A stretch of 32,918 bases of DNA from a virus: positions 1-32,918 of IMG/VR virus record IMGVR_UViG_3300035698_005819; one strand, given 5' to 3'. Each line of letters opens with the position of its first letter. Position 1 is the stretch's first letter. Below, in pieces: positions 1-30,019 of this stretch. The notes beneath the pieces are model-generated. The model saw nothing but the letters and a program-made list of their open reading frames with translations. It was not told where the DNA came from and did no database searches. The position numbers were made by a program, and so were the translations under genes.

Positions 1-595
1 GGTGCGACATGCTGTCCCACACGCTGGCCCCCACGCTGGACCACATGCTGGCCCCCACGCTGGACCACATGCTGTCCCTCACGCTGGCCCCCACGCTGGA
101 CCACATGCTGGCCCTCACGCTGTCCCTCACGCTGGCCCCCACGCTGGCCCACACGCTGACCCCCACGCTGTCCCACACGCTGTCCCTCACGCTGTCCCTC
201 ACGCTGGCCCCCACGCTGTCCCAACGTCTAAGCAGTAGTATGTCTTTTTTGGATACCTTAGTCCTTTTCTTTAAAGCTAGAGGGTTCAATATATCTTTTA
301 TTTTAAGTTGTGGCACTATCTTGTAAAAGTCTAACTTAGCTATAAACTCTTTTGCTTTAACTGTATCATCAGTTGTATTTATTTGATCTACTGTAAACTT
401 CTTTGTTAGAGGATTGTACTCATACTTGTTTAATTTATCTTCTTTCTCCCCCTTAAAGCCGTAATAGTCCGCTATAGATGTATGAGAGTCAGGCTGGTAG
501 TCTAGCTCCCCCTTTAAACATCTATTCCTTAACTTCCAATCAAAGTAATAAAACTTACCCCTACCGTTACTTACAAAACTAAAAAATGAACACAT
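1..595 (-). CDS. Tetrapeptide-repeat (xxSV) protein, C-terminus outside window
   Basis: An open frame begins with ATG at 595, preceded by a GAAGG Shine-Dalgarno, and runs without a stop through the left edge, giving at least 198 residues. The first ~124 residues are an ordinary charged sequence in AT-rich codons. From about residue 125 it becomes 18 consecutive tetrapeptides of the form [W/G/R]-[D/A/S/V]-S-[V/M]. The repeat stays in frame with the upstream part, which supports it as real coding sequence. The codons in the repeat (GGG, GCC, GAC, AGC, GTG) are unlike those of every other gene here. I do not recognise a function. Short-period solenoid or surface-exposed repeats are possible structures. 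The gene ends the leftward early operon within this window. Confidence 0.75.
   Translation of the reverse strand, partial: MCSFFSFVSNGRGKFYYFDWKLRNRCLKGELDYQPDSHTSIADYYGFKGEKEDKLNKYEYNPLTKKFTVDQINTTDDTVKAKEFIAKLDFYKIVPQLKIKDILNPLALKKRTKVSKKDILLLRRWDSVGASVRDSVRDSVWDSVGVSVWASVGASVRDSVRASMWSSVGASVRDSMWSSVGASMWSSVGASVWDSMSH
8..223 (-). repeat. 12-bp GC-rich tandem repeat, 18 copies
   Basis: Read on the minus strand, each unit is [T/G/A]GG [G/T][A/C/T]C AGC [G/A]TG. There are eighteen uninterrupted units. AGC is invariant, and every difference between units changes an amino acid, with no synonymous variation. The repeat is GC-rich in an AT-rich genome. It may continue past the left edge, where the last visible bases read TCG CAC. 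Confidence 0.95.
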
Positions 596-3558: not shown

Positions 3559-3732
3559 TTATACCCTAAATATAGCTCGGGGTAGTAAGAGGTTATATAG
3601 AAATAAAATCACGTTGTAGGGATACTCACGTCCCGTAAATTGCACAGTATTGCACAGTTATTATATGTATAGATAACAGGGTTTTATTCGATTATCTAGT
3701 CATAAAGTAAGAGTCTAATACATATCTCCTAT

Positions 3733-3818
3733 GATATGTACTATATATCCTCAGGGATATGTACTATATATCATTAGAGGCATGTACTATATATCTCCTA
3801 TGATATATATATAATAAT
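3733..3818. repeat. 23-bp iterons with near-palindromic core
   Basis: A 17-base near-dyad, GATATGTACTATATATC, begins at 3733 and 3756 and recurs as GGCATGTACTATATATC at 3779, giving an exact 23-base period with 6-base linkers. A degenerate fourth unit starts at 3802, and a weaker one may end at 3726. The linker TCCTAT recurs at 3727 and 3796. The regular phasing resembles initiator-binding iterons. Confidence 0.7.
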
Positions 3819-3955
3819 ACATATATAATAATACAAAGAAAAGAATATATTATATAAGGAAGATTAGTATATTATCTTTATTTTAATATAATACATCTAA
3901 ATATAATTACAGTTTAGTTAAATTCATGTTGACGATAAGGGGTGCAGAAATACAA

Positions 3956-3968
3956 GTGTCAATGACAC
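3956..3968. repeat. 13-bp palindrome GTGTCA-A-TGACAC
   Basis: This is a perfect 6-bp inverted repeat around one central A, of the size and symmetry of a repressor or activator half-site pair. It lies upstream of the first rightward micro-gene. No linked regulator gene was recognised. Confidence 0.4.
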
Positions 3969-4176
3969 GCTAGACAAGGTACGGTTTTGAATTGATAAGA
4001 GATAAGGTATAGCTTTAATGTCCTGTCTAAGGTATCTAGTTGTCCAGTGACAGCGTTTTTATGGTGTATTGTATTAGTTTGTATGTTATGGTATATCTAG
4101 TGTATTCTAGGGGATTGTCGTAGCCCTAAGAGTATAGGGGAAGTCTAAGTATATAAGATGTAAGGAGTAATAACCA

Positions 4177-11338: not shown

Positions 11339-11500
11339 ATGAAAATAGAGTATTTTAAATGTGATAAATGTGGTAAACACATAGAGCCTGTAGAATATAC
11401 AGTACATGTAAAACAGGTAACACCTGAGCATCATGTCAAGGTGGATAAGGTGTATGACTTATGTGAAGAATGTTTTGAGCAGATAAAAGAAGTCTTATAA
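11339..11500 (+). CDS. Zinc-ribbon micro-protein, 53 aa
   Basis: Starts at ATG 11339. It has Cys-Asp-Lys-Cys near residue 8 followed by Gly-Lys-His, and Cys-Glu-Glu-Cys near residue 43, giving a four-cysteine zinc site with a beta-rich middle. Its stop overlaps the aminotransferase start as TAATG, so the two are coupled. The ribosome site is weak (AGAGG some 13 bases upstream). The role is unknown. Confidence 0.7.
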   Translation: MKIEYFKCDKCGKHIEPVEYTVHVKQVTPEHHVKVDKVYDLCEECFEQIKEVL

Positions 11501-12387
11501 TGATTAAGTTTTATGATGGTAGGATATCAGGAGATTACAGCTTAATACCGAAACTCGAAAGAGAGTTTGCAGCCTATACAGGATTTGACCATGCAATAGC
11601 AGTTGACTCTTGTACAAATGCAATTAAGTTATGTTTAGCTTTTGAGAAGCCTAAGATAGTTGGTGTACCAGATCTTACTTTTGTTTCTGTAGCCCATGAG
11701 GTACTTCATTCTGGAGCTAAACTTCACTTGCTAGATAAACATTGTGCTGGATACGCATATAGATTAGAAGGTACTAACATAGTTGATTCAGCTCATGCTA
11801 TTGATAAGAAAGTAGCTCATGAGAAGAATGATAAGTATTGTTATTCATTTTACCCAACTAAATTGTGTCCCTCCTATCAAGGTGGGATGATTTGCACAGA
11901 TAATAGGTTCTTTTCAGAATGGGCCCAAAGTGCTAGGATGATGGGAAGATCAGGTTACGGAGCTTACTATGATGTTAATGTTATTGGATATAAGAATAAC
12001 ATGACTCCCATACAAGCTAAGTATGCTTTAGAATCTTTACATCTGTTGGATAAGACAAAGAAAAAAGCTAGAAAGCAATGTAGCATATACTTAAAAGAAC
12101 TTAGTGATGTTACATATAGATTCACTGAACATCTTTATATACTTTCAATAGATGGTAGAGATGATTTTATAAAGTTTATGAGAAATAATGGTGTTGAATG
12201 TTCAATACATTTTCTACCAATAAGTAAAAAGAGTGCATATAAACATGTAGACTATAGTTCAGATGGTTTTGAATTTACAGGTAAGTTGAGTAGTAAGATT
12301 GTATCTATACCTCTTCATCCTTATCTGACTAGAAAAGACCAAGACGTAGTTATTAAATTAGTAAAAGCCTGGACAGGCAAACTGTAG
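11500..12387 (+). CDS. DegT/DnrJ/EryC1-type PLP sugar aminotransferase
   Basis: The protein has 295 residues and transfers an amino group from glutamate to a keto-sugar nucleotide, using PLP. The sequence shows a Glu-Phe-Ala-Ala-Tyr-Thr-Gly start, an Ala-Val-Asp-Ser-Cys-Thr-Asn PLP-phosphate loop, Asp-Ser-Ala-His (Asp96, His99) and Ser-Phe-Tyr-Pro-Thr-Lys with Lys121 as the PLP lysine, followed by Gly-Gly-Met. A Tyr-Lys-Asn-Asn-Met-Thr-Pro-Ile-Gln-Ala-Lys motif follows. Family members usually have ~370 residues, so this is a compact but apparently complete active site. By homology it could serve as a WbpE/WlbC-like 3-aminotransferase. It sits in the head module, coupled to the zinc-ribbon gene, with three glycosyltransferase genes just downstream. 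The exact substrate is unknown. Confidence 0.88.
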   Translation: MIKFYDGRISGDYSLIPKLEREFAAYTGFDHAIAVDSCTNAIKLCLAFEKPKIVGVPDLTFVSVAHEVLHSGAKLHLLDKHCAGYAYRLEGTNIVDSAHAIDKKVAHEKNDKYCYSFYPTKLCPSYQGGMICTDNRFFSEWAQSARMMGRSGYGAYYDVNVIGYKNNMTPIQAKYALESLHLLDKTKKKARKQCSIYLKELSDVTYRFTEHLYILSIDGRDDFIKFMRNNGVECSIHFLPISKKSAYKHVDYSSDGFEFTGKLSSKIVSIPLHPYLTRKDQDVVIKLVKAWTGKL

Positions 12388-12395
12388 GAGTTGAA

Positions 12396-12785
12396 ATGGA
12401 ATATCAAATAACAAATGCTGCACCTGAAGAGAGTAAAGTAGTACCATCAGAACCAGCAAGTCCCATAGAGGACAGCACACTATTAGAGAGTGGTGAAGCT
12501 GTACAAGATGTAGAATACAAAGCTCTAGTTGATGATTCAGTAAAAGACTTTGTGAAACAAGCTTTGCAGAAATATGACCTAGTTGAGAATGATGAGAATA
12601 GCCATAAGGTACTAAAAGCTCTAAATCAAAGATTAAATCAATGGCTAAAAGAAAAAGATCTAACGTTAGACTTAGATATTAAAATAGATAATAAAGAAGA
12701 TATTGAAGCCTCTATAGAGAGAAAAGGTTTGAAATCTTCTGCTAAGAACTATAAAGATATTATACTAAAACTATTAGGAGATTAA
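12396..12785 (+). CDS. Hypothetical acidic protein, 129 aa
   Basis: Starts at ATG 12396 after GGAGTTGAA. The first ~45 residues are Pro/Glu/Ser-rich and probably disordered, and the remainder is helical and charged. It may be a minor capsid-associated or chaperone-like protein, judging only from its place between capsid and decoration-like genes. Confidence 0.6.
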   Translation: MEYQITNAAPEESKVVPSEPASPIEDSTLLESGEAVQDVEYKALVDDSVKDFVKQALQKYDLVENDENSHKVLKALNQRLNQWLKEKDLTLDLDIKIDNKEDIEASIERKGLKSSAKNYKDIILKLLGD

Positions 12786-12786
12786 G

Positions 12787-12906
12787 ATGACAGAACGCTT
12801 TTGGCCCAACTATTTTGAAACAAATTATAATGATGCAGGTGAGTTAAAGAAACTATGGAACACCTTTCTTTGGGGTCTATGGGAACTAATGGTGCAGGAC
12901 CATTAA
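12787..12906 (+). CDS. Possible 39-aa protein overlapping next gene
   Basis: Starts at ATG 12787 with GGAG six bases upstream, a better ribosome site than the next gene has. The peptide is rich in Trp and Phe and ends inside the decoration-like gene in another frame. It may be a separate coupled peptide, or the natural 5' part of the next gene separated by a frameshift. Confidence 0.45.
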   Translation: MTERFWPNYFETNYNDAGELKKLWNTFLWGLWELMVQDH

Positions 12907-13406
12907 GAATGGATTCAAGTACAGAATCTTTACAAACAATTGATTATAGTCACCATGAGATACATGATGGAAGCCACTATTTTATGGAGGGGTATACACT
13001 ACTAGATAGGGGAGATGCCCTATATGTTAAACTAGAAACTCCAGCAGGTACTAAATGGTCTCATTTTGTATGGGAGATTTCCAGTAGCTTTATTCTTACA
13101 ACTGCTCTTGTAGAAGATCCTACAGGTGGAATGTTGGGTGGATCTAATGTAGCTCCTATTAGTAATAATAGGAATAAGATTAGTGCAAGTGGGATGACAA
13201 TTACTTCTGGAGTAACAGCTTGTACAGGTGGAACAACTATTTCACAGGCAAGTTGGGGAGCAAGGGCAGCAGGTGGAACTAGTAGTAGAGAGGATGAAAT
13301 TATACTAAAAGCAGGATCTACCTATTGTAGAACATTTCTAAGTGGCACTAACTCAAATATAGTGGCATTTAAAGCTAATTGGTATGAGCATACAGATAGG
13401 AACTAA
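12855..13406 (+). CDS. Capsid decoration or fibre-like protein
   Basis: The protein has 183 residues. It contains His-His-Glu-Ile-His-Asp-Gly near residue 35, a central Asn-Asn-Arg-Asn-Lys turn and a late Glu-Asp-Glu-Ile-Ile-Leu-Lys-x-x-Ser-x-Tyr stretch ending in Trp-Tyr-Glu-His. This pattern recurs in small beta-rich proteins next to the capsid gene in many tailed phages, usually unannotated or called decoration proteins. The assignment is from memory of that pattern and from synteny. The ribosome site is poor at ATG 12855; ATG 12879 is an alternative. Being next to the glycosyltransferases makes it a candidate acceptor for glycosylation. Confidence 0.6.
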   Translation: MEHLSLGSMGTNGAGPLRMDSSTESLQTIDYSHHEIHDGSHYFMEGYTLLDRGDALYVKLETPAGTKWSHFVWEISSSFILTTALVEDPTGGMLGGSNVAPISNNRNKISASGMTITSGVTACTGGTTISQASWGARAAGGTSSREDEIILKAGSTYCRTFLSGTNSNIVAFKANWYEHTDRN

Positions 13407-13426
13407 AGTATAGAGGGAGTATAAGT

Positions 13427-15043
13427 ATGAAATTAGGAAAGATGACGTTTGTGATGCCAGCCTACGATATTGCGTGGAGAACTGTAGAGAGGGCTATAGA
13501 TTCAATCTTAGATCAGGACTATGAAAATTGGGAACTGATAATAGTTAAGAATGGTCTAGCAGATGGAGGTAAAATTCGTAGAAGAGTTAAACCCTATCTT
13601 AAAGATAAAAGAATTAAACTAATAATACTAAAAGAAGCTAATGTATGTAATGCAAGAAACAAGGGAGCTGAGATAGCTACTGGAGATTTCTACTCATTCT
13701 TCTCTAGTGATTTTGTAATGAAACCAGGTATGCTTAGATACTGGATTGAGATGTTTAGGGATAATCCAGAGTATGGTATGCTCTATGGTGGATATGATTG
13801 GACTGATGAAAACTATCCAACGTATAGATCTCAAGATTATGATGAGTATACTTTGCTACATGGATTAAACTATATAGATGGTGGATTTCCTGTAAGAAAA
13901 GAATACTACCTACCTTGGGATGTAAACTGTAAGTCTCTAAATGATTGGGAATGGGTAATCAACTTAGTAACTCATGGTTGTAAACCATTGTATACATATG
14001 AGATTGCCTATGAAGCTGATCTACCTAAACCAGGAGGACTGAGTAATGATTCAGCAGGTAACTGGGTAGATAGAGTTAAATATGTTAAAAAGAAACATGG
14101 TATAAAAGAATCAGATATCTGTGTAAGTTCACTAGGGGCACCATTTCATGGAGTAAGAACTGCTAAACTATTAGAGGCAGACTTTAAACCATTTCCTACT
14201 GCAAAACCTCATGAGTATAAAATGTTATACTTGCTAGGGTTCTATGTTGGTCATACAGAATCAGTTAAAAGTCATTTCACAGTATTTAACGATACTAGAG
14301 GTACTGATATAAAGAAAGTAATACATTGGATTGGTTCTGATATACAGACAATGATGGGGCTATCTTGGGGAGCTAATAGAAACATTGTGGATGCTTTCAA
14401 ACGTGAAGGGTTTATTCATCTGTGTGAATGTGGTACTACTCAAAGTGAACTAGAGGCTATGGGTATTGAAGCTAAAATAGTACCATTACCTATAGATATG
14501 GAAAACTATAAAATAAGTAAACTACCTGAAGAACCTGTAGTGGCTGTATACTGTCCTGATAATAACCAAAATGGTGAAGCTCAGTACAACTTGCCATTGA
14601 TGAGAGATGTAGCAGAATCTATGCCAGATGTGAAGTTTAAGTTCTTTGGTGGTAATAAGGTTCAAACAGTAAAGAATATTGAATATGTAGGTTATGTAGA
14701 TAGTATACCAGATCTTATTAAAGAGTGTAGTATGGTACTAAGGGCTACTCTACATGATGGACTACCGATTGGTCCGATAGAGTTTCTACTTTGTGGTAGA
14801 GATGCTATAGTAACAACTCCTGGGATGAGTGGTACTCATTATCTGGGTCATGGTAGAGTTAATGAAGATAACTATGCTGATATGAAACAAGGTGTAATTG
14901 AGAGTATCAGAGAGACTATTAAGGAGCCTCTTACAGCTAAAGAGAAACTACTAGTAAGTCAATATTGGAGACATAAAGTAGGAGCAAGAAACTTTAAAGA
15001 GAAGATTAATGCTATACTTCATGGGAGAAAGCTAAATGACTAA
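13427..15043 (+). CDS. Two-domain glycosyltransferase (GT2 + GT-B)
   Basis: The protein has 538 residues. Residues ~1-230 resemble GT2 (GT-A fold): Val-Met-Pro-Ala-Tyr-Asp at the start, Ser-Ile-Leu-Asp-Gln-Asp-Tyr-Glu-Asn-Trp-Glu, an Ala-Arg-Asn-Lys-Gly turn and Phe-Ser-Ser-Asp where the metal-binding Asp-x-Asp is expected. Residues ~260-535 look like a GT-B (GT4-like) enzyme: His-Trp-Ile-Gly-Ser-Asp, Val-Pro-Leu-Pro-Ile-Asp, a Phe-Phe-Gly-Gly strand and a nucleotide-sugar loop with Asp-Gly-Leu-Pro-Ile-Gly-Pro-Ile-Glu. Two activities in one chain could add two successive sugars. The Ser-Ser-Asp variant leaves the activity of the first domain open. GGGAG precedes the ATG. Confidence 0.82.
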   Translation: MKLGKMTFVMPAYDIAWRTVERAIDSILDQDYENWELIIVKNGLADGGKIRRRVKPYLKDKRIKLIILKEANVCNARNKGAEIATGDFYSFFSSDFVMKPGMLRYWIEMFRDNPEYGMLYGGYDWTDENYPTYRSQDYDEYTLLHGLNYIDGGFPVRKEYYLPWDVNCKSLNDWEWVINLVTHGCKPLYTYEIAYEADLPKPGGLSNDSAGNWVDRVKYVKKKHGIKESDICVSSLGAPFHGVRTAKLLEADFKPFPTAKPHEYKMLYLLGFYVGHTESVKSHFTVFNDTRGTDIKKVIHWIGSDIQTMMGLSWGANRNIVDAFKREGFIHLCECGTTQSELEAMGIEAKIVPLPIDMENYKISKLPEEPVVAVYCPDNNQNGEAQYNLPLMRDVAESMPDVKFKFFGGNKVQTVKNIEYVGYVDSIPDLIKECSMVLRATLHDGLPIGPIEFLLCGRDAIVTTPGMSGTHYLGHGRVNEDNYADMKQGVIESIRETIKEPLTAKEKLLVSQYWRHKVGARNFKEKINAILHGRKLND

Positions 15044-15710
15044 AGTATGTTTTCTACTAACTGTATACAATAAAGAAGTCTGGATAGCTCAGACTATACA
15101 AAGTATCCTAGATCAAACTCTAAAAGATATAGAGATAGTTGTATGGGATGATGGATCTACTGATAATAGTATGGCTATTGTAAAATACTATAGTGATAAA
15201 GATGATAGAATAATAGTGGGTGGAAGTAAAGAAAATCAAGGGATCTCTAAGGCGTACAATGCAGCTAGAGAGCTTGTTACTGCCCCTTATGTTTGCATTA
15301 GTTCTGGGGATGATCTATATGACCCTAAACGTGCTCAACTAACTAAAGACTACTTCACTAAGCATCCAGAAAAGAAAATCCTGTATGGGGCATTCTGGAG
15401 GATCTATGCTAACGGTAAGATAATAGAATATAAACCAGCATTGCCATATGATAAAGAGAAATTGTTTGAAGAGAATAACCAGTATATACCACATGGATTT
15501 ATGTCTGTCCATAAGAGTGTACTTGACAAAGTACCTTATGATGAGACACTTAAATATGGTATTGATTATCCTTGGATTAAAGAACTAGCTAATACTTATG
15601 AGCCTTATGAATGGGGAAGAGTAAAAGCAGACATGGGATTCTATAGATGGTTTAGAACTAATGTAAGCCATGAACATAGAGATGAAATCGTAAGACAGGG
15701 GAACTCATAG
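15036..15710 (+). CDS. Glycosyltransferase family 2
   Basis: The protein has 224 residues with a GT-A fold. It begins with Leu-Leu-Thr-Val-Tyr-Asn-Lys, has Ser-Ile-Leu-Asp-Gln, the nucleotide-binding Asp-Asp-Gly-Ser-Thr-Asp (about residues 38-43), Asn-Gln-Gly-Ile-Ser and Ser-Gly-Asp-Asp as the metal-binding site. The length is that of a single catalytic domain with little C-terminal extension, and no membrane segment is visible, so it is soluble. It overlaps the preceding gene by eight bases. The sugar and acceptor cannot be read from the sequence. Confidence 0.9.
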   Translation: MTKVCFLLTVYNKEVWIAQTIQSILDQTLKDIEIVVWDDGSTDNSMAIVKYYSDKDDRIIVGGSKENQGISKAYNAARELVTAPYVCISSGDDLYDPKRAQLTKDYFTKHPEKKILYGAFWRIYANGKIIEYKPALPYDKEKLFEENNQYIPHGFMSVHKSVLDKVPYDETLKYGIDYPWIKELANTYEPYEWGRVKADMGFYRWFRTNVSHEHRDEIVRQGNS

Positions 15711-15711
15711 T

Positions 15712-16830
15712 ATGTTAAATGTATTTTTTGGTCATACAACAGCTTTAGGTGGTGCTTATTATAGGTGTATGTGCCATGCTTTTGAAATGAAGAAACAGAA
15801 TATAGCTTACTCAACCTATACAGATTATGACCCTAAGACTATGGGTAATATGCCTATCTGTTGGGAGAAAGAGCAACTGTCCGATCCTAATAAGCAAGAG
15901 TCTATTATGATGCAGCTTAATGCTTTAGTTAGACAAGCTGATATTACAGTATACCAGCATTTCATAACTCCAATGGGATTAGCCCTATTGAGAATGCAAC
16001 AAGATGAATTAAAGAAGCCTATAGTTACTGAGATAGATGATTATGCTTTTGATATACCTGCATTAAATGCCTCTTCAGAATTCTTTAGAGATAATAATGA
16101 GAAGGTTAGAATTACTAGATCTCAACTAATGCTAAGTGATGCTTTAATAGTATCTACAGAATACTTAAAGGAACAGTACTCTAGGTACAATAAGAATATA
16201 CATGTAATACCAAATTGTATAGACTTCTCTATATGGGATGGATTACAAAGAAAGTTAAACAGAGGAAAGATAAGAATTGGTCATATAGGTGCCTCTGGAC
16301 ACTTAGATGATAAGCAAATATTGAAAGATGTTATACCACCAATTCTTGAGAAATATGACAATGTAGAGTTTATATTTGTAGGAGATGGATACTACCCTAC
16401 TTGGATGGGTGAATATGTAAAACAAGGAAGAATTAAAGTATCTGCTCATTGGAAAAACATTGAAGAGTATCCAAAGTATTTAGCTGATTATGGCTTTGAT
16501 ATAGGGATTGCTCCTCTAAAGGACTATAGATTTAATAGGGGTAAAAGTAATCTAAGATACTTAGAGTATTCAGCTTTGAAAATGCCATCTGTATGTAGTG
16601 ATGTAAGACCGTTTCATGATACTATCAATGATACTATCACTGGATACTTAGTTACTGAACCAGATGAGTGGATAGAGAGACTTTCTGAGCTAATTGAGTC
16701 AGAAGATAAGAGAAAAGAGATTGGTGATAACGCATATAAATTAGTTGAGAAAGACTTTAACTTAAAGAAGATAACACCAAAGTATGTTAAGGTATTGAAG
16801 AAAATTGTGAAGGAGTACAAACATGAGTAG
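15712..16830 (+). CDS. GT-B glycosyltransferase (GT4-like)
   Basis: The protein has 372 residues. The N-terminal domain ends near Val-Ile-Pro-Asn-Cys-Ile-Asp (about residue 165), the usual linker to the nucleotide-sugar domain. The C-terminal domain has Ile-Gly-His-Ile-Gly-Ala-Ser-Gly-His, Phe-Val-Gly-Asp-Gly, and Asn-Arg-Gly-Lys-Ser-Asn-Leu-Arg-Tyr-Leu-Glu-Tyr, where the glutamate matches the donor-binding position of GT4 enzymes. No signal peptide is seen. It overlaps the adaptor gene by eight bases, so the three transferase genes are co-translated with head-tail genes. Confidence 0.88.
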   Translation: MLNVFFGHTTALGGAYYRCMCHAFEMKKQNIAYSTYTDYDPKTMGNMPICWEKEQLSDPNKQESIMMQLNALVRQADITVYQHFITPMGLALLRMQQDELKKPIVTEIDDYAFDIPALNASSEFFRDNNEKVRITRSQLMLSDALIVSTEYLKEQYSRYNKNIHVIPNCIDFSIWDGLQRKLNRGKIRIGHIGASGHLDDKQILKDVIPPILEKYDNVEFIFVGDGYYPTWMGEYVKQGRIKVSAHWKNIEEYPKYLADYGFDIGIAPLKDYRFNRGKSNLRYLEYSALKMPSVCSDVRPFHDTINDTITGYLVTEPDEWIERLSELIESEDKRKEIGDNAYKLVEKDFNLKKITPKYVKVLKKIVKEYKHE

Positions 16831-27472: not shown

Positions 27473-27692
27473 CTAATTCATCCTCCCTTAAATATCTTAT
27501 TGGTTCTATACCACAATCTATTAATCCATCAAGTATACTAGGTTCAACTTGTCGGACTTGTAGACCACTTCGATTCTTCCCCACATGACCTTTGTATTCT
27601 GGTCCAGTAATAAGTTTATCTAACCCATAGAATTTCTTGGTAAACCTATTACAGGTACAGATACCATCTATATGATATTTACAAGAGACCAT
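27465..27692 (-). CDS. Hypothetical Cys-containing protein, 75 aa
   Basis: Cysteines at residues 4, 12 and 14 together with His7 suggest a possible metal site at the N-terminus. The rest is mixed with an acidic tail. It overlaps the epimerase gene by about 14 bases at its start. No family was recognised. Confidence 0.55.
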   Translation of the reverse strand: MVSCKYHIDGICTCNRFTKKFYGLDKLITGPEYKGHVGKNRSGLQVRQVEPSILDGLIDCGIEPIRYLREDELDD

Positions 27693-28545
27693 TAATAATG
27701 CTCCTTATCTTTCTTTCAGCATGACCATCACCAAACATATTCAACTCAGGCCAAGGATTAATCCCTATATACTCACAAGGCAATCCAGCCCAGTAAGCTT
27801 CTCTAACTAATCCACCTGAATCAGTAACTACAGATCTAGCTTGTAGCATACTCCTTAGAACCTCATTATAAGGTACAGGGCTCTCTACTAATATATTAGC
27901 TGGTACATCTATCTTATTATCTACAATATACTTAGCTGTATGAGGATGAATGTAAAACCAAGTCATAGGGTAGTCTATTGATACCTTGTTAAGTATTGCT
28001 TGTAAGTTAGGTAAGTTCTCTCTTCTGTGAAGAGTTAGTATATTAACATCCCAGGTCTTTCTTACATCTCTCCAAGTCTTTAAGAATCTATCCCTCATCA
28101 GATCCCCAACAAATCTTACCTTCTTAAATGCAGTACCCTTAACATTCTCATAAGCCTTAACTGTTGGGCAGAGGAGTATATCTGCCATTTTATCTACTCT
28201 AACCCTTATTCTTTCTTCTATATTGTTAGACCCACTTCGTACACCAGCTTCTATATGAGCTAATTTAACACCACAATGTTTAGCTGCTATAGCCCCTGCA
28301 AAAGTAGAAAATGTATCTCCATAGACTATAATTACTTTAGGTCTTACTATCCCAATAAACTCTATTAAAGCTCTAATTGTTGATTTAAGACTTACCCATT
28401 CTATTCTACAATCTACATTGGGAGAATCATAGTTTAGTGTCTCACTGTAATGCTGACCAGTATCTATGACAAAGCTATCCTCAAACTTTATAAGTTTAAT
28501 ATACTGAGGTCTACAACCTATTATTTGTAGTATATTAGAAGCCAT
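27679..28545 (-). CDS. UDP-N-acetylglucosamine 2-epimerase-like (WecB/WbpI family)
   Basis: The protein has 288 residues. The family inverts C2 of UDP-GlcNAc or of its 3-acetamido uronic acid. Motifs in order are: Gly-Cys-Arg-Pro-Gln-Tyr-Ile-Lys-Leu, Thr-Gly-Gln-His-Tyr, Val-Tyr-Gly-Asp-Thr, His-Ile-Glu-Ala-Gly-Val-Arg-Ser with a following Glu-Glu-Arg, Leu-His-Arg-Arg-Glu-Asn, and Thr-Asp-Ser-Gly-Gly. The Asp, both Glu and the His match residues known to be important in E. coli WecB. Typical members are ~370 residues, so this is a compact version with shortened loops. It overlaps the dehydrogenase gene by eleven bases, implying joint expression. It cannot be told from sequence alone whether the substrate is UDP-GlcNAc or a WbpI-type one. 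Confidence 0.88.
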   Translation of the reverse strand: MASNILQIIGCRPQYIKLIKFEDSFVIDTGQHYSETLNYDSPNVDCRIEWVSLKSTIRALIEFIGIVRPKVIIVYGDTFSTFAGAIAAKHCGVKLAHIEAGVRSGSNNIEERIRVRVDKMADILLCPTVKAYENVKGTAFKKVRFVGDLMRDRFLKTWRDVRKTWDVNILTLHRRENLPNLQAILNKVSIDYPMTWFYIHPHTAKYIVDNKIDVPANILVESPVPYNEVLRSMLQARSVVTDSGGLVREAYWAGLPCEYIGINPWPELNMFGDGHAERKIRSIINGLL

Positions 28546-29317
28546 CTAAATTCCTATCCCCTTTACCAACCTCTATCAGCATTGATAATAGTTGTCCTAG
28601 TTTGTCATTACCACCATCTAGTTTAGGTAGTTGATTGAGAAGCATATGAGCATTCTCTACAACACAATGACCCCCTATTTTATCTCCAGGAGGAGAGAGT
28701 AACTGCTTTCTATATCTCTCACCCGTAGCATTGATACCTTCATTGTAAGTCTCAGTAAAGTCAAATACTACATCCATATAGTCTAACCCATAATGTTTAC
28801 ATAGTCTGTCTTTAAGTTCAGCAAATAGTAAATTAATACCATAATCTGTAGTAGATAGTATCTTACCTAGCTCAGTAGTTTGACTTCCCTCTAAACATTT
28901 AAAATTTATATGGGCATTATATAGGAACTCTATAGCTAGATTCTTTGAGGAGATATCATCATACCCAATATACTTAACATAAGTTTTAATTCCTTTACTC
29001 ATTGACTTCCAATGAACACCTCTAACAGGTGAGTGGACTACTCTAGCTTTAGCAACTTCTCTGATTTTCAGAGTAGTTCCTACAGGTACAGTTGAATGGA
29101 TGATAGTTAGTTTTGGTTTGAAAATAGCTATATACTTAGCAACTATACCTATAAAGTTGGGTAGGTTTCCAGGGATACAGATATTTAATACCTCTTGAGG
29201 ACAAGGCTTATATGTATCTTTATCTGTAATGTCAAATGTATCAGTTACATAATGTTCGTTTAAAGCCTTGTATAAACCTTTACCAATCTCACCCATACCT
29301 ATTATTAAATTATTCAT
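28535..29317 (-). CDS. Nucleotide-sugar 6-dehydrogenase-like (UDP-Glc/GDP-Man DH family), short
   Basis: The protein has 260 residues. A Rossmann start has Gly-Met-Gly-Glu-Ile-Gly. Then come His-Ser-Thr-Val-Pro-Val-Gly-Thr-Thr (near residue 75), the central helix with Glu-Leu-Gly-Lys (Lys152), and Gly-Gly-His-Cys (Cys218), which matches the catalytic cysteine of UDP-sugar dehydrogenases. It would oxidise C6 of a UDP-sugar to the uronic acid with NAD. The usual C-terminal UDP-binding domain is missing (full enzymes are ~420 residues). It may therefore act on another form, need a partner or be altered in function. It is adjacent to the epimerase, the WecB-WecC arrangement. Confidence 0.8.
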   Translation of the reverse strand: MNNLIIGMGEIGKGLYKALNEHYVTDTFDITDKDTYKPCPQEVLNICIPGNLPNFIGIVAKYIAIFKPKLTIIHSTVPVGTTLKIREVAKARVVHSPVRGVHWKSMSKGIKTYVKYIGYDDISSKNLAIEFLYNAHINFKCLEGSQTTELGKILSTTDYGINLLFAELKDRLCKHYGLDYMDVVFDFTETYNEGINATGERYRKQLLSPPGDKIGGHCVVENAHMLLNQLPKLDGGNDKLGQLLSMLIEVGKGDRNLDGF

Positions 29318-29496
29318 AATACATCCCCTAAATTTATTGTAGGTATTACTATAGGTACATTGCTTGTTATATTAATAGGCATATTACCTGTTACTAAGAC
29401 CTCTACAGGAGCTACCTGAACTAACTCAGCTACATGTCTATGAGTAACTGTACAGCCTACTAAACTAAGAACCAAACACAGTGTCAATATTCTCAT
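29314..29496 (-). CDS. Small lipoprotein, 60 aa
   Basis: I start at ATG 29496 because AAGGAGAAGG lies upstream; an in-frame ATG at 29514 precedes it. A short signal peptide ends in Leu-Val-Gly-Cys (Cys15), a lipobox. The mature ~45 residues are Val/Ile/Pro/Asn-rich. An o-spanin (Rz1-like) role is possible by size and lipidation, but it is not particularly proline-rich and lies within the sugar operon away from the endolysin. Its 5' end overlaps the acetyltransferase gene by 32 bases. Confidence 0.6.
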   Translation of the reverse strand: MRILTLCLVLSLVGCTVTHRHVAELVQVAPVEVLVTGNMPINITSNVPIVIPTINLGDVL

Positions 29497-30019
29497 TACC
29501 TTCTCCTTTTTCATAATAGTCTACATTCCAATCATCTACTCCCATTGCTCTGCTACAACCAAGACAGACTCCATACTCATCTAAAGATCTACAGCCCTTA
29601 CATTTATCTCTAACTACAACCTTAGCTGGATTACCATAGACTGTAGAGTAAGGTAATACACTTTTAGTTACTACAGAACCAGCTCCAACTGTACACCCTG
29701 TACCCAATGAGATACCGCAAAGTATAGTTGAGTTAGCCCCTATATTAACTTTGTCATGAACCCTAGTAGATTCAAATTTACCATAGTCTTTTGAGGTAGG
29801 ATACTTGTCATTAGTAAAGCAAACTTTAGGGCCAATAAAAACATTATCCCCTATAGTAACTCCTCTAGGTATGAATACCCCATGCTGTATCTTGCAGTAC
29901 TCACCTATTATAACATCCTGACCTACTTCAGTGTATGCACCTATAGAAGTAAAATCCCCTATCCTACATCCAGGTAGTAGATTTACATAATCCCATATCA
30001 CTGGAGCTTTATGTAGCAT
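29465..30019 (-). CDS. Hexapeptide-repeat N-acetyltransferase (WbpD/WlbB-like) with zinc-ribbon tail
   Basis: The protein has 184 residues. Left-handed beta-helix hexapeptide repeats run through about residues 15-135 (Ile-Gly-x-x-x-x-Ile-Gly and similar). Between them is Val-Phe-Ile-Gly-Pro-x-Val-x-Phe-Thr-Asn-Asp-Lys-Tyr-Pro (about 59-74), a motif I associate with WbpD/WlbB enzymes that acetylate the 3-amino group of UDP-2-acetamido-3-amino-glucuronic acid. After Gly-Asn-Pro-Ala-Lys, which usually ends such proteins, comes a Cys-x-x-Cys...Cys-x-x-Cys extension (Cys140, 143, 152, 155) that looks like an added zinc ribbon. It is co-oriented with the dehydrogenase and epimerase genes. GGGG precedes the ATG. 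Confidence 0.87.
   Translation of the reverse strand: MLHKAPVIWDYVNLLPGCRIGDFTSIGAYTEVGQDVIIGEYCKIQHGVFIPRGVTIGDNVFIGPKVCFTNDKYPTSKDYGKFESTRVHDKVNIGANSTILCGISLGTGCTVGAGSVVTKSVLPYSTVYGNPAKVVVRDKCKGCRSLDEYGVCLGCSRAMGVDDWNVDYYEKGEGNENIDTVFGS

Follow-up and report, generated by a model that had tools for sequence, protein, structure and literature searches.

A rapidly rewritten tetrapeptide array in a widespread family of phage proteins and its possible role in counter-defence

The repeat gene at the contig edge

The stretch of DNA analysed here, referred to as the window, comprises 32,918 nucleotides of a viral record (IMG/VR record IMGVR_UViG_3300035698_005819), and it begins inside a gene in which a 12-bp unit is repeated many times in frame. 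The question raised by this locus is whether such an array, lying at the very end of a contig, is a regular part of a phage protein, and if so, then by what process its units are altered and what their alteration could serve. The gene is located on the minus strand (1..595), where its ATG at position 595 is directly preceded by a Shine-Dalgarno-like GAGAAGG; the ORF is cut by the left contig edge, with 198 codons readable and no stop. The first 124 of these codons (224..595, minus strand) are AT-rich and non-repetitive and specify an N-terminal domain (MCSFFSF...DSHTSI...EYNPLTKKF...IVPQL...LLRR), for which no Pfam or PHROG match was found, and which is conserved in the loci L019, L035, L044, L041, L082 and others. 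It is followed by the array (8..223, minus strand), consisting of 18 full units of the form NGG KHC AGC RTG, which encode [W/G/R][D/A/S/V]S[V/M] and run in frame from 223 down to 8. The GC content of the array is 70%, as against 32-36% in the gene body. TRF places the array at 7-223, with a period of 12 and 18.1 copies, and within the units only nucleotides 1, 4, 5 and 10 vary, the third codon positions are invariant and the number of silent differences is 0. The description given in the initial annotation, viz. 18 in-frame 12-bp units lacking silent variation, was thus confirmed both by TRF and by reading of the individual units. For the window alone the lack of silent variation carries little weight, as about 5-6 mutational differences suffice to explain all 18 units and the absence of silent differences has a P of about 0.12 by site opportunity (not significant by itself), but it does become significant across the family, as described below.

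The seven bases at the contig edge (TCGCACC; 1..7, minus strand) match neither the unit nor, when compared with the C-terminal alignment, the C-terminal domain of the relatives. Due to this, the true end of the array is unreadable in the window and its exact number of units is uncertain; these bases are probably either contig-edge noise or the start of an unread segment. The missing C-terminus of the protein is due to a cut by the contig edge. In the remainder of the window, the portal and terminase are podovirus-like, and a sugar-modification cassette (11500-16830, plus strand, and 27679-30019, minus strand), consisting of genes for a DegT aminotransferase, three glycosyltransferases, a UDP-GlcNAc 2-epimerase and a hexapeptide transferase, is interleaved with the structural genes. 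The region 3700-4000, which is very AT-rich (GC 21-23%) and contains short tandem repeats, shows a change in the sign of the GC skew between the leftward and the rightward genes, and it is possibly an origin or a divergent promoter region.

A family of proteins with exchangeable partner domains

A scan of IMG/VR with a DNA pattern that required three consecutive units recovered 48 stretches, and from some 85,000 genomes of bacteria and archaea a scan recovered 10, of which only L065 and the pair L060/L061 (from one single-cell genome) resemble genuine arrays. In the viral pattern set the array lies in the middle of the protein, and two main protein types are seen: type A, to which the window protein belongs, and type B, which carries a C-terminal DUF6745 domain. 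A DUF7666 N-terminus is found in one more contig (L052). As the set obtained in this manner is biased to one codon set, a second search was carried out for which the conserved type A C-terminal domain was the only query; it recovered 112 relatives, of which 79 distinct loci were retained. In the majority of the relatives from this search, an xxSV array is found between one of several N-terminal domains and the sequence AYxSSxF...LWxxGLVPSFDGxxWRLH, so that the common architecture consists of an N-terminal domain, a central [W/R/G][D/A/N/S]SV array and a conserved C-terminal domain. The complete arrays span from 4 to 42 units, and in a minority of the proteins (e.g. L074, L077-L079, L111, L113, L119 and L135) the middle part is degenerate and irregular. 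Separately, positions 1-3210 of L020, about 3.2 kb, are made up of xxSV-like units that fall into several blocks of different reading frame and that have N in place of D/A at position 2.

The window gene fits into this family, showing 56% amino acid identity to L019, which has the same architecture, in an alignment. A single-protein search with its N-terminus found one relative only (55%). The junction is conserved across the relatives, with LLKxWxSV leading into the array and AYxSSxF following it. It follows that the window gene belongs, in truncated form, to a widespread family and has the usual array junction. If the array were instead an assembly artefact or a chimeric join at the contig edge, then its position at the very edge and the seven odd bases beside it would be accounted for, and elsewhere too the arrays often end contigs: in 25 of 119 loci the array lies within about 12 bp of the locus end, and three contigs (L017/L025, L022/L053 and L023/L029) have array sequence at both of their ends. 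However, long contigs from many independent samples contain this junction and array in their interior, and the conserved C-terminal domain comes after them. The artefact explanation, to which we assign next to no probability, is refuted for the gene as such, and the chimeric join near position 223, which the initial annotation had considered, is not present, as the relatives share this junction. What the edge positions do indicate is that the arrays break assemblies, that of the window included.

The terminase of the window has a distant match only, in one of seven type A contigs, which indicates that the gene travels between unrelated phages. Taken together, the array occurs in more than a hundred contigs of uncultured phages, where it is joined to several domain partners and stands on independent codon backgrounds, which makes it a recurrent solution.

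Turnover of the arrays and the uniformity of their codons

In comparisons of close relatives, the array DNA has been rewritten much faster than its flanks: the number and the order of the units and the residues at positions 1 and 2 change, and S and V at positions 3 and 4, like the silent sites, are uniform inside an array. Between L141 and L143, all 195 codons of the gene that flank the array are identical, and the surroundings differ at 9 of 1897 upstream bases and at 0 of 3000 downstream bases, whereas their arrays (204 bases) have 11 differences, all 11 of which are nonsynonymous. Similarly, L011 and L019 have 36 differences in 4000 bases of downstream sequence, and their arrays have only the first two units in common; L014 and L034, identical across 1351 upstream bases, carry roughly 27 and 6 units, respectively; and in L085, L090 and L108 the flanks are 87-95% identical but the arrays are wholly different, with Arg encoded by AGG in one of them and by CGG in the other two. 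Two copies on one contig (L009 and L010) also have flanks that are 99% identical and arrays that differ, one being frameshifted. Identical arrays are, however, seen in many sister-sample pairs, and it would be incorrect to conclude that the change is constant or universal at this distance, fast as it is. For the window protein itself, no near-identical relative was found by the search with its N-terminus. The view expressed in the initial annotation, that the array expanded recently and diversified at defined positions, agrees with these results, as close relatives differ in the array and not in the flanks and amino-acid-changing variation dominates. As a separate observation, the unit reading frame changes part way through the arrays of L010 and L014, and in L014 the flanks are back in one frame (the N-to-C span being a multiple of 3); these changes could be phase variation, decay or assembly error.

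The uniformity of the codons was assessed on 36 arrays, which came from the C-terminal search and were not chosen by DNA pattern, and in this set, which is not strictly independent since relatives already in the pattern set had been dropped, 24 silent alleles were observed where site opportunity, if S and V do not change, would lead one to expect 64.6 (P 7e-12), alongside 150 amino-acid-changing alleles. In 26 of these 36 arrays there is no silent allele, and silent differences inside an array are found mainly in degenerate arrays. Most arrays employ a single codon set throughout, and the sets differ from array to array, with 13 different Ser-Val codon pairs among them (e.g. TCG GTC, TCT GTG, TCG GTT, AGC GTG and AGT GTT). 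The same is seen for Arg at position 1, which in 56 of 61 arrays is specified by one codon only, the array being nearly always all-AGG or all-CGG. Silent variation among related copies, which the initial annotation had named as evidence against its reading, is thus present between loci, but hardly ever occurs within an array, and so counts only by half against it. In a tree of the C-terminal domain, which is poorly resolved, 27 changes of the Ser-Val codon set are counted (against a minimum of 13 and a mean of 32.6 after shuffling), and the codon sets thus turn over almost freely relative to the flanks. At the protein level, W, R or G occupies position 1 in 92% of the units and D or A occupies position 2 in 79%.

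This conservation of residues while the array DNA changes argues strongly against a role at the DNA level only. In favour of the view that the 12-bp array is mainly a recombination site, an origin or a regulatory element, with its coding capacity incidental, an identical unit, NGGNNCAGCGTG, recurs in unrelated phages whose GC content ranges from 35 to 66%. However, it is the amino-acid motif that is kept across the 13 codon pairs, with AGC and TCN serine codons alike, and with few exceptions the array continues the reading frame of two conserved domains, one on either side of it; the codon switching largely refutes this explanation, which we regard as barely credible. The same results bear on the origin of the GC-rich codons, for which the initial annotation had suggested a foreign seed recently fused to the gene. 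This suggestion is not supported, as the junction is conserved, the GC content of the arrays tracks that of their contigs (Spearman 0.63-0.72) and the codon sets switch repeatedly along the tree of the flanks.

The arrangement of the units gives indications of the process by which they change. Words of 2-5 units recur more often than after shuffling (z 5-7), and the residues at positions 1 and 2 are linked (z 10.9); both of these features are expected from duplication by unequal recombination or slippage. At lags 1-10, on the other hand, no autocorrelation of unit identity is seen, contrary to what simple slippage would be expected to give by itself, and hence duplication alone is not the whole story. 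The missing autocorrelation had led us to consider a random, independent writing of the units, and this idea is weakened by the linkage, by the multi-unit words and by the fact that AGG and CGG are not mixed. A more specific proposal would be that a targeted mutator, viz. a diversity-generating retroelement or something similar, writes the variable positions, and the limitation of the variation to defined nucleotides, where it is almost never silent, speaks for it. However, no reverse transcriptase (PF00078) is present in the window record or in 23 array-bearing contigs, these records being fragments; further, random mutation at nucleotide 1 would mix AGG and CGG, which are rarely mixed within an array, and the adenine of AGC is never mutated in the window. 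A mutator of this kind is thus extremely improbable. According to the explanation which we prefer, unequal recombination or replication slippage would duplicate and delete units, thereby wiping out silent differences, and selection would keep W/R/G mixed at the first variable position and D/A at the second.

The part assigned to selection has to be weighed against neutrality. If the array is a slippage-prone helical spacer, whose units drift and in which W/R/G and D/A are merely tolerated, then no adaptive role needs to be invoked; multi-unit duplications are indeed detectable, degenerate and non-repetitive middles exist (L111, L135), the number of units varies over the whole range given above for complete arrays, and many relatives with identical flanks have identical arrays as well. 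However, nonsynonymous alleles exceed the prediction from site opportunity, with silent alleles at about a third of their expectation, the W/R/G by D/A mixture reappears on 13 codon backgrounds, and the differences between L141 and L143 are exclusively nonsynonymous. We consider a neutral spacer unlikely, although by no means negligible. The anatomy of the protein and the rapid turnover of its shuffled repeat are well supported, and in these we have high confidence.

Predicted structure, probable function and comparison with known systems

In an AlphaFold model of L019, a full-length relative of the window protein (mean pLDDT 83), confident helices are present at the junctions on either side of the array, and the array itself is helical at low confidence (pLDDT 48-68). 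The model of L111, whose middle is degenerate (mean pLDDT 90), shows mostly helices in this part at pLDDT 82-85, with one weaker stretch at 56-69. The array segment is thus predicted to be alpha-helical, which argues against a beta-helix of the pentapeptide kind. Foldseek against the PDB returned nothing for either model, the C-terminal and N-terminal profiles gave no convincing match to solved relatives, and VIA-align of L111 residues 1-96 gave an Arr ADP-ribosyltransferase at Z 6.0, which is below the level trusted alone.

With regard to gene neighbourhood, the window gene belongs to an operon of small genes that runs leftward and lies at a distance from the structural genes. The L118 gene lies between an ERF recombinase and replication genes, L084 has a helicase and DUF4406 among its neighbours, L104 has a DNA methylase and a terminase, and RepO and DnaB are also among the genes near relatives. 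These neighbours suggest a non-structural accessory role. If the protein were a virion or host-recognition component, then the array could be a variable receptor-binding surface, for which variable exposed residues on a core of fixed ones would be suitable, and the several glycosyltransferase genes of the window phage hint at surface interactions. However, in addition to the neighbours just described, the DUF6745 domain of type B is also found on plasmids, with no phage structural genes among the neighbours seen, and such a role is very improbable. The variable binding surface as such, which the initial annotation had envisaged, may possibly be formed by the array.

An indication of function comes from sister proteins that share the array and the C-terminal domain and have a DUF7666-like N-terminal domain. 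A model of this domain (m7e59b1dfbfcb, L111:1240-2010) matches DUF7666 and RIIB models in BFVD at E 1.5e-4 and above, and a profile of the same domain aligns with T4 RIIB 214-309 (hhalign E 5e-4, with a probability of only 32). Among the BFVD matches are numerous RIIB proteins of phages, together with one protein of a Rheinheimera phage that bears the name Pentapeptide, and this suggests that the DUF7666-like domain is often joined to repeats. It should not be interpreted from this that the window protein has such a domain, as its own N-terminal domain has no Pfam match to DUF7666 or RIIB and hhalign probabilities of 0.4 and 3.4. T4 rII overcomes exclusion by lambda Rex. A PADLOC search gave no meaningful match, and a literature search on the motif strings, DUF6745 and DUF7666 found no paper in the collection that it covered. 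A function in counter-defence is a guess by analogy, to which we give a less than even chance. The explanation that we favour overall, with slightly more confidence than doubt, is that of a recombination-shuffled helical repeat in a non-structural phage protein, composed of an N-terminal domain, a central alpha-helical tetrapeptide-repeat segment and a conserved C-terminal domain (cut off in the window and present in relatives), whose variable segment would tune its interaction with some factor of the host or of a prophage, most likely in counter-defence. A fast-rewritten array of this kind looks like a quick-change part of a protein, possibly for evading bacterial or prophage defences; if it does tune counter-defence, then it would be a system of rapid adaptation that needs no reverse transcriptase, and one which short-read assembly hides, since the contigs break inside the arrays.

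A broader reading, which we think rather improbable, is that the array is a general quick-change recognition module, in which S and V would provide a helical scaffold, the W/R/G-by-D/A units an alphabet, and each lineage its own recognition string; phages would reshuffle the units by recombination, reseed them with new codons and combine them with different N- and C-terminal domains. The logic of such a module would be comparable to that of TALE repeats. The pentapeptide repeat proteins likewise have short-period repeats in phage proteins; however, their A(D/N)LXX repeat has a period of 5 and forms a beta-helix, whereas the period in the window is four residues, the segment is predicted to be alpha-helical and there is no Pfam match, in keeping with the mismatch to that fold stated in the initial annotation.

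DUF6745 (PF20530) occurs in proteins of phages, plasmids and bacteria, and in those on phage contigs the same [W/R/G][D/A]SV array, often with the same codons, is placed N-terminal to it. Other members of this group have different tetrapeptide arrays, ending in SSL (L067, 5007-6284, [WGRE]SSL), QL (L068, 4263-5708, [WRG][GD]QL) or QV (L069, 576-1932, xxQV), in which position 1 is again mostly W/R/G (NGG codons), and plasmid members from Streptomyces (L070), two Mycolicibacterium (L154, L155) and Nostoc (L156) have non-repetitive middles. In a copy from a Nocardia plasmid, frame changes interrupt the DUF6745 array protein. As far as the window protein can be read, it gives no PF20530 match, and the C-terminal domain of its type A relatives differs from DUF6745; likewise, the likeness to DUF7666 (PF24703) and RIIB pertains to the N-terminal domain of the sister proteins and not to the window's own.

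The closest comparison is with gp54 of mycobacteriophage Tweety, which was described in 2007 as a curiosity that was perhaps more widespread. Its array also has a 12-bp in-frame unit, with a GC-rich core, encoding AA[G/W/Q][S/Y], i.e. two fixed small and two variable residues; the third codon positions are invariant, the variation being at first and second codon positions, and Tweety gp54, Che8 gp57 and PMC gp51 have near-identical flanks and different arrays (PMC2884959). All of these features have counterparts here: the window unit is of 12 bp, in frame, with two fixed and two variable residues, the third codon positions are invariant inside the window array and in most arrays of its relatives, and array differences despite near-identical flanks are seen among the relatives of the window protein. 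The fixed residues, however, are SV here and AA in Tweety, the set of variable residues is also different, and flank homology to Tweety was absent among the matches listed for tblastn of L019, L095, L104 and a type B protein against phage records. A function of the repeat number is known for Tweety only, where escape mutants of gp54 with an altered repeat number overcome a prophage defence (PMC9262239, PMC8549241), and it is by analogy with this case that the variable helical segment may tune a counter-defence interaction. On sequence grounds, the family described here is a new variant of the Tweety gp54 design, unrelated to it by flank.
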